Assembly: GCA_029850515.1 (NCBI GenBank)
Contig: JARCRW010000061.1
Location: forward strand, 1 to 59,368
Reading direction: 5' to 3'
DNA length: 59,368 nucleotides
Source of the DNA: Nitrosotalea sp.
GTDB taxonomy: Archaea > Thermoproteota > Nitrososphaeria > Nitrososphaerales > Nitrosopumilaceae
Under the pieces are notes generated by a model. That model was not told the DNA's origin and did not search any database. It worked only from the letters and a program-made list of their open reading frames with translations. Position 1 is the stretch's first letter. Every line of letters begins with the position of its first letter. The position numbers were made by a program, and so were the translations under genes. This document shows positions 1 through 19,545 of the stretch, piece after piece.

Positions 1-362
1 GAATTAAGATTATTTTATGTTCGGTGATTATCAATCTACAATACCTCTTCCGTTTTTTGTTGTTTATTTTTATCCTTACTTTCCTTGATGGTTTTGTTTA
101 CCATGAATTTTTTACTTCACGTTCTTATAGTTTTATGTGATATAAAGTTCCTTATTTTTTAAAACCCTAATTCGGAGAAGATCCGTATTCAGGTCTCGAC
201 AAGTTAGCAGAACCCTTTTTTATTTTAACTAGTTCTGCAAGACTCGTTACAAAGCTAGCATGAAAAAAATATGCTGTTTATTGGTTTCTCATTGTGAAAA
301 TTAGAATTAGCACTATCAGAGATAGTGTCAATCATTTTATACTGTAAGATAAGCTGAGATTT
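1..362. other. AT-rich intergenic region, left edge
   Basis: No convincing gene is seen on either strand. The stretch is strongly AT-rich with several T-tracts (for example around 50-70 and 150-165), as expected of intergenic DNA in this lineage. It contains one recognisable element, an insertion-sequence-end-like motif at 191-214, described separately. The last 60 bases must carry the promoter of the oxidoreductase that starts at 363, but no clean TATA box stands out. Confidence 0.5.
191..214. repeat. Solo copy resembling the end of the tnpB element at 18.2-19.5 kb
   Basis: The 24 bases here begin AGGTCTCGA and end GCAGAACC. Aligned without gaps to the tnpB element end at 19478-19501, 18 of 24 positions agree: the first nine bases, AA at positions 11-12, and the last seven. 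The orientation is the same as the 19478-19501 end. No tnpB-like coding sequence and no partner end is visible in the 190 bases to the left, so this is either a decayed solo end, the end of an element lying mostly outside the window, or a chance match. Confidence 0.35.
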
Positions 363-18105: not shown

Positions 18106-18264
18106 ATGTGCAAAAGTGTCTGGATTTTAGTTGCTAAAAGTTTGTCCGATTTACTTCATAAAATACCAGGAATCGGAACGAAAACGCTAGAGAGGACCCT
18201 AAACATTACAACATGTTCAAAATGTAGCAATTCATGTTGGTTCTGTCTGGTTATCGGGACCTGA
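18106..18264 (+). pseudogene. Small helix-hairpin-helix reading frame running into the tnpB element
   Basis: An open frame of 52 codons reads SLSDLLHKIPGIGTKTLERTLN, a convincing helix-hairpin-helix DNA-binding motif (LxxIPGIGxKT), followed by TCSKCSNSCW with a cysteine cluster. Its last codons lie inside the left inverted end of the tnpB element (from 18239) and it stops there. If the element is removed at its inverted ends, the frame continues for four codons as CPK and a stop within the flank at 19512, giving about 47 residues. The start at 18106 is uncertain because the frame stays open upstream into the dtdA promoter region. The interruption is an inference; the frame could also be a chance remnant. 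Confidence 0.4.
18239..18262. repeat. Inverted end of tnpB element, 3' side of tnpB
   Basis: Begins GGTTCTGTCTGGTTATCG and is the reverse complement of 19478-19501 except at two positions. It lies seven bases beyond the tnpB stop codon. Confidence 0.85.
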
Positions 18265-18268
18265 AATT

Positions 18269-19447
18269 TCATTTCCCAACAACTAACTTGCTTCCATCCA
18301 CTCGGAGGATTAGTGGCTGCATGGAACCATTGTTCCAATCCACATTCCCCTTCATCGGTTCAACTAAAAGCCCTCTAGGATGGCAAAGCCTACTCCACCC
18401 CTTGCAAGCAATGTTCATGGATGCTGCTACATCCCTGTCCATCGTTCTCTTGCAATTAATGCACAATAATTTTCGTCTGTGAAACCCGTCCTCTTGGAGT
18501 TTCCCTCCGCATGTTGGACAGAGTTGGCTTGTGCGTTTAGGATCTACGAATCCAACAGGAATTCCTTCCCATTCTGCCTTGTATGTAATCTGCCTTTGCA
18601 GTTCGTAGAACGACCATGAGTTTAATTTTCTGCGATACTTGTTTCCTTGCCCGTTGCCTTTTCGATATAACTTTCTAATTCCTTTGAGATCTTCGAGTAT
18701 TATCATACTCTTTGATTCCATTGCCCTTTGCACAACATCTTTTGATATTTTGTGTAAGTGTTGTTGGATTCTTCTGGAACGCCTGTTTCCCAGTCTTTGC
18801 TGAGTGTCTCTTTACTCGTACATCAAACCTCTTCAATGATTGTATCACGTGACTGGTGTTTTCCTTGATTGAAAGGAGTTTGTTTGTCTTGTACATGATA
18901 GAACCATCTCTAGTTGAAATTGTTACATTTCTTAAATTCCTGTCAATTCCAATAACATTTTCTGGAATGATTTGAGTTACTTCCTTTCTGATTGACAATG
19001 AGATTGAATGTGGAGTGATTGTGAATGATTTTACTTTTAGTGACTTGTCTTGAAGAATTTCCAATGTATGATCATTCAATAATGCATGTTGGCAATTTCC
19101 AGAACCAATGGGAATTGCCAATAGTATCCCATTTATCTTGAATCCATAACATGACACCAGATATGGTTTGGAAATATAGGGAGATTTTGGTTTTCTGCCC
19201 TTCTTGATGTCTCTTTTCATTTGTGCAAGTCTGCCACATGCGGAAGATATTGCAGTTAGTTTGTAGTATGACAAAATTTCGTATTCGGATAATTCATGAT
19301 ATGACAACAAGGAAAGTTCTTTAATGTTGAACAGTTGTTTTCAATACCAATCCTGACGCAATGATTTACCATTTGTCTGAACGTTTCCATCATGGAAACA
19401 AGTTCTCGGGTTGGCTGATATGATTGTGCAATAGATTTCATTGCCAT
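18269..19447 (-). pseudogene. tnpB: tnpB, RNA-guided nuclease of IS200/IS605-type elements, two frameshifts
   Basis: Three minus-strand pieces in two frames together make one TnpB of about 390 residues. The N-terminal piece (19447 to about 19330) reads AMKSIAQSYQPTRELVSMMETFRQMVNHCVRIGIE. The middle piece (to about 18790) contains the RuvC-I aspartate in VIGIDRNLRNVTIS. The last piece contains the RuvC-II glutamate in MIILEDLKGIRKL, the zinc ribbon CPTCGGK...CINCK, and RuvC-III DRDVAASMNI. Shift 1 is near 19325-19340, where the middle frame opens as NIKELSLLSYHELSEYE. Shift 2 is near 18790, where the frame should turn to NRRSRRIQQHLHKISKDVVQ. All catalytic residues remain, so inactivation looks recent, unless sequencing errors explain it. 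Confidence 0.88.
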
Positions 19448-19477
19448 TGATATCTCTCTTGTCTAATCATGATATCA

Positions 19478-19501
19478 AGGTCTCGATAACCCGACAGAAC
19501 C
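19478..19501. repeat. Inverted end of tnpB element, 5' side of tnpB
   Basis: Begins AGGTCTCGATAACCCGAC and ends CAGAACC. It pairs with 18239-18262 in inverted orientation with 22 of 24 matches, and a looser copy in the same orientation occurs at 191-214. The tnpB start lies 30 bases inside. Confidence 0.85.
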
Positions 19502-19545
19502 GTCCAAAATAAGAATTATAAGGACACTTTGGGAAAAGTCCTCCA

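Follow-up and report, generated by a model that had tools for sequence, protein, structure and literature searches.

A decayed tnpB element with IS6-type ends in Nitrosotalea, and a one-sided TAM-like motif beside its archaeal relatives

The window, by which we mean the whole stretch of 59,368 nucleotides analysed from a Nitrosotalea sp. genome (G000), contains one broken tnpB between two 24-bp terminal inverted repeats, with all features of the element on the minus strand. The LE repeat, on the 5' side of tnpB, runs from 19,478 to 19,501 and is identical to both ends of an IS6-type element, L024, described below. The RE repeat, on the 3' side, runs from 18,239 to 18,262 and was characterised by 24-mer searches and by RNA pairing. 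The two repeats pair at 22 of 24 positions, as the sequence-only reading of this DNA had claimed. In the predicted omegaRNA the RE repeat doubles as the 3' arm of the final hairpin and ends in ACAGAACC at the guide boundary; the predicted 3' scaffold, made up of the last part of the frame and the RE repeat, covers 18,239-18,358. A putative guide stretch lies in the flank beyond RE, at 18,219-18,238. It is placed there from TnpB biology, and the earlier reading had correctly put the guide on this side, left of 18,239. Directly outside LE is one copy of an 8-bp target duplication (19,502-19,509; TTTTGGAC on the minus strand), followed by a TAM-like TTA (19,510-19,512). Relatives without the insert have both sequences at the empty site.

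The tnpB is a pseudogene with two frame changes, in agreement with the earlier reading; in minus-strand order it runs from frame 0 to frame 2 and back to frame 0. ORF translation and tblastn identified an N-terminal part in the first frame (19,256-19,459) and a middle part in the second frame, containing GIDRN (18,675-19,337). The C-terminal part, in which the first frame is regained (18,269-18,811), contains LEDLK, the zinc ribbon and DRDVA. The tblastn pieces overlap at about 19,300-19,340 and 18,795-18,811, which confirms the places proposed for the frame changes. All three catalytic residues (D in GIDRN, E in LEDLK, D in DRDVA) and the four cysteines of the zinc ribbon were found as stated, and these columns are invariant in an alignment with 20 relatives. 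The C-terminal piece matches the Cas12f1-like_TNB and guided_TnpB models, the latter at 99.1 bits, slightly below the cut-off of 100. The RuvC D/E/D and zinc ribbon are those of a TnpB (OMEGA) nuclease.

The right flank of the element (the secE side) matches 36 of the 37 genomes of the genus. In two close relatives that are free of the insert (L219 and L220, flank 93-94% identical) the site reads TTCTTA-TTTTGGAC-ATGAATTG. In the window, TTCTTA-TTTTGGAC stands ahead of LE and most of the second TTTTGGAC is missing after RE. Since the LE copy and the empty sites are intact and the RE copy is mostly gone, the duplication once existed and was then damaged. A near-identical sister species (G006, flank 99% identical) shares the insertion and has lost a large internal part of it, so the window copy was inherited. 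Judged by these comparisons, the window copy is an old, inherited, decaying relic. The sequence-only reading had offered three accounts of the frame changes. Recent inactivation is doubtful, as the element is just 72-74% identical to the copies compared. The other two would make the window copy an active one, its frame changes being assembly errors or programmed frameshifts; the catalytic residues are kept and the reading regains the first frame. We consider this very unlikely and have set it aside. Sequencing error fits poorly with the internally deleted sister copy at the same site, and frameshifting translation with the single uninterrupted frame of intact relatives. The damaged RE-side duplication also speaks against activity, as does the host genome, in which no IS6 transposase was matched at 1e-30.

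Another genome of the genus, G005, has an insert (L029, L218) at the same nucleotide and in the same orientation as the window element, of another subtype (elements 72% and flanks 95% identical). These same-nucleotide inserts reflect either replacement by conversion or a second insertion.

A sequence search of 61 genomes for the 24-mer repeat (at most 3 mismatches) gave matches in seven, each a genome of the window's genus, and most of these matches were paired with a tnpB between them; a reversed control pattern gave no match in the same genomes. The ends in the window are therefore above chance. The earlier reading had made their role depend on their presence in related copies, and related copies do have the ends, together with exact 8-bp duplications. 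G005 has five tnpB elements between copies of the 24-mer. Four are about 1.25 kb long and have a single open frame of 404-408 codons, counted from stop to stop, and the fifth is shortened by a deletion; the duplication is an exact 8 bp in four of the five and 7 bp in L029. G020 contains a 1265-bp element with the same 24-mer and an 8-bp duplication. A 567-bp element in G023 (L025:3396-3962) has the same repeats and an 8-bp duplication, does not contain tnpB, and is flanked by NTR (see below) on neither side.

In G026 the same 24-mer bounds both ends of a 4.9-kb element with an 8-bp duplication (L024). Its transposase of 371 residues belongs to the IS6 family (NCBIfam NF033587, 129.1 bits, cut-off 125) and also matches the Pfam DDE_Tnp_IS240 domain. 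This element (L024:3722-8631) also carries an Eco57I-like restriction-modification (methylase) gene. According to a review of the IS6 family, its members are recognised by a GG tip, a CTGT motif and duplications of 8 bp (PMC7986276). The place of archaeal members in the bacterial IS6/IS26 family has been doubted (PMC6807381), and for this reason we use the label IS6-type. The tnpB elements have the GG..CTGT repeats and the 8-bp duplication, and they contain tnpB alone, with no IS6 transposase of their own. They are described here as non-autonomous; L024, with its identical ends, is a candidate partner, and movement driven by an IS6-type transposase would account for the likeness.

The sequence-only reading had taken the element for an IS200/IS605-type one with unusual ends, which proved wrong: the ends are of the kind that bounds IS6-type DDE elements. 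That the element nevertheless belongs to IS200/IS605 (IS1341-type), its inverted ends being accidental, might be argued from the protein, which is TnpB, and from matching profiles, some of which are named IS200/IS605. The repeats and exact 8-bp duplications of the relatives make this extremely unlikely, and we have set it aside. The tnpB element contains no Y1 gene, Pfam Y1_Tnp was found in only 3 of the 37 genomes of the genus, and it was absent from G005, the host of several intact copies. Moreover, the TAM-like motif does not abut LE, as it does in IS200/IS605, but lies 8 bp out, past the duplication. Elsewhere in the window genome a Y1 transposase (G000:C87:4776-5119; L347, L349) lies close to another tnpB stretch (G000:C87:3853-4332); the two may form a genuine IS605 element whose TnpB is of a different lineage. 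The window also contains, close to the left end of the contig, a single IS6-type end (GGTTCTGCTAACTTGTCGAGACCT, 191-214, minus strand) that equals the ends of the IS6 element in L307; no partner for it was found in the window (at most 6 mismatches to the tnpB-type repeat).

At 1e-40, a TnpB profile had matches in 60 of the 400 genomes searched in the order. In a scan of named genomes, the 79 loci retained (the best of 313 confirmed) had hosts in Nitrosotalea, Nitrosotenuis, Nitrososphaera, Bathyarchaeota, Asgard and other archaea. Two candidates from this first detection, L129 and L150, were spurious judging by their ends, and a uniform pipeline replaced it. With that pipeline 190 loci gave 198 tnpB regions, 148 of them distinct, and 41 non-redundant tnpB elements had IS6-type repeats and duplications matching at 7-8 of 8 positions. 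When ends were paired across different loci as a null, 1 of 591 pairs passed. L103 was kept among the 41 although its ends are doubtful; L029, whose duplication is 7 bp at best register, was missed. In the other 107 distinct regions no repeats plus duplication were found, for which decay, contig ends or other carriers are possible reasons. None of 64 loci from viral contigs had these ends, and their best segment was at most 38% identical.

Several sequence types can be told apart among the repeats of the 41 elements, and the order also has IS6 transposase elements of corresponding types. Of the 34 such IS6 elements analysed, none had tnpB inside it, so tnpB would move in trans; this result and the lack of an IS6 transposase match in the window genome make the partner in trans one that we infer. 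The 34 elements are about 1.9-7 kb long, far above the usual 0.8 kb, and may therefore carry other cargo. Several of them, from several genomes (L315, L317, L318 and L322, and also L308), have in common the flank TTATAAGAGT(A/G)T and, after it, duplications resembling TGTTTTAG; at L322 the elements at this flank form a chain. A preferred site or tandem build-up is possible.

The RE end was read in 92 distinct copies of tnpB, and 32 of these were placed in an alignment that took no account of structure. The consensus contains two helices within the last codons and a third formed by the codons round the frame end and the repeat. Its positions pair in 93.5% of cells, against 84.0% after shuffling (0 of 500 shuffles as high), and slid versions of the consensus reach at most 57%. 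Changes on both sides of a pair numbered 41, against 12.5 in shuffled alignments (0 of 500), a count in which the consensus comes from the same alignment and related rows are counted repeatedly. The repeat pairs better with its own arm (-8.3 kcal/mol) than repeats of foreign type do (-5.4 kcal/mol) in 62 tails drawn from the 80 with an anchor among the 92 copies (Wilcoxon 3e-10, a value that includes the relatedness of the tails). In single-sequence folds of the set used (the window, L068, L026 and L028, with L154 and L176 left out), the window (z -2.73) and L068 (z -2.09) beat their shuffles and L026 and L028 did not. As two of four is weak evidence, we relied on the covariation counts. Rfam returned no family for the RNA in six loci and the window element, and one sub-threshold chance match. 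By covariation, an omegaRNA structure is predicted at the 3' end, as in other TnpB systems, with the downstream repeat as an arm of its last hairpin.

In other TnpB systems the guide starts directly after the RE end, according to the SisTnpB1 study (PMC10640517). A guide starting at RE would here begin with the duplication, and the TAM of the empty site must then adjoin the LE-side duplication on its outside. At this place an NTR triplet (T, then A or G) was found in 34 of the 41 elements, and TTR in 21; outside the RE-side duplication the numbers were 7 and 2 of 41. The local background of NTR is 15.0%, giving a binomial p of 7e-22 on the LE side and 0.42 on the RE side. The duplication itself has no conserved position (at most 0.25 bit per position in the 41 elements).

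A preference of the transposase itself for TTR outside its target, with tnpB as mere cargo, might produce such a motif. Target preferences exist in some DDE transposases, and for most of the tnpB elements the exact transposase was not found in the same genome. This explanation is quite unlikely. The 34 tnpB-less IS6 elements come from the same order, end in repeats of the same kinds and are poor in the motif on both sides (NTR 3/34 and 5/34 at the two ends); the figure of 34 overstates the independent sites, since several of these elements abut the end of another element (flank ACC) and some have one target site in common. In addition, the motif is oriented relative to tnpB and clusters with the TnpB lineage. 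Three of the seven exceptions to NTR (L295, L296 and L298) form one TnpB clade, and L095, L103 and L290 group with L292 in another; L141, with a shortened open frame, is the only exception inside the main clade. On the TnpB tree NTR requires 5 changes (shuffled mean 11.5; 0 of 500), and all motif labels together require 8 (12.3 when shuffled; 0 of 200).

A held-out set of 148 loci with 143 tnpB regions (59 of them viral) yielded 9 further elements. Repetition of NTR had been the aim, and NTR was present in only 2 of the 9, the commonest ending being TTT. T at -2 was present in 8 of 9 on the LE side and 0 of 9 on the RE side (p 4e-4). A T-rich motif at a fixed place is repeated in the held-out set and NTR is not; the kind of motif follows the TnpB tree.

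Within the main clade the motif is near-universal even at perfect 8-bp duplications, including those of the 97%-identical copies L026 and L027. This is more than slow loss of motif-less insertions would easily give, and it counts against the reading that we prefer below. Together with the fixed distance and the restriction to one side, it is an argument for an origin of the motif at insertion: the TnpB ribonucleoprotein, scanning for a TAM, would bring the IS6-type transposase, and insertion would follow 8 bp from the TAM. An RNA-guided nuclease would then help a DDE transposase to select its target, one duplication length from the TAM, and each insertion would program the guide for its own empty site. 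We hold this to be rather unlikely. The donor's guide is directed at the donor's own site; targeting would therefore need TAM binding alone, and we know of no link between TnpB and a DDE transposase of that kind.

In the reading that we think probable, an IS6-type transposase moves tnpB in trans, and tnpB persists because its product cuts empty alleles; the window copy is a decayed one. The window element would be a non-autonomous one, a single tnpB between IS6-type terminal repeats. The DDE transposase of another element would bind the repeats, move the tnpB element and leave an 8-bp duplication, as the common ends and the duplication length suggest. TnpB would be produced with an omegaRNA ending in the downstream repeat, so that the guide would begin with the 8-bp duplication and run on into the flank. 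On an empty allele the triplet found outside LE would precede the guide sequence and could serve as TAM. By analogy with the TnpB of IS200/IS605, the nuclease would cut such alleles, and repair from the occupied copy would keep the element; insertions without a TAM could not force retention and would be lost. Consistent with this are the common ends, the duplications, the one-sided motif limited to tnpB elements, the RNA covariation that includes the repeat, the invariant catalytic residues and the motif-bearing empty site. Copy-in IS6 transposition leaves no excised empty site, unlike that of IS200/IS605. If the reading is right, the TAM-like motif and catalytic residues, kept all the same, favour cutting of empty alleles (drive) over post-excision repair as the selected role. 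One study reports such a drive in plasmids, with TnpB of the IS200/IS605 type (PMC11870625).

If this reading is correct, prokaryotic TnpB is not tied to IS200/IS605 or IS607 and has entered IS6-type DDE elements, as Fanzors have in eukaryotes, with the target duplication fitted differently. The elements would then offer a natural test of the selected role of TnpB, and a set of small archaeal nucleases with predicted TAM and RNA. The titles and abstracts searched, with subscription papers and most preprints outside their range, held no report of a prokaryotic TnpB in IS6-type or other DDE elements.

With the TnpB of IS200/IS605 and IS1341 elements (ISDra2; SisTnpB1), the proteins have in common the RuvC D/E/D and the zinc ribbon and, as predicted here, an omegaRNA at the 3' end of the gene, a guide read from the flank and an AT-rich TAM (PMC10640517). 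IS200/IS605 and IS1341 elements are without terminal inverted repeats or target duplications, and the TAM abuts LE as the TnpA target, whereas elements of the window type have IS6-type repeats, an 8-bp duplication and a TAM-like motif outside it. The GG tip and CTGT motif, the 8-bp duplications and the IS240/IS6-type DDE transposase of corresponding elements are those of IS6 (PMC7986276, PMC6807381). The tnpB elements differ in having no transposase; the IS6 review names one member with a passenger gene, ISDsp3 (PMC7986276). The nearest precedent is formed by the eukaryotic Fanzor1 and Fanzor2, TnpB homologues in DDE-type elements with TIRs and TSDs, as here (PMC10711439, PMC3627910). According to the same sources, Fanzor1 occurs in IS4-type elements with 8-bp duplications, and the TIR is predicted to contribute to the guide RNA scaffold, a further likeness; the TSD is described as lying within the scaffold in Fanzor1 and Fanzor2*. 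The present hosts are archaea, and in their elements the duplication, at most 0.25 bit per position, is variable and is preceded by the motif; it would therefore belong to the guide, unlike the scaffold TSD of Fanzors.
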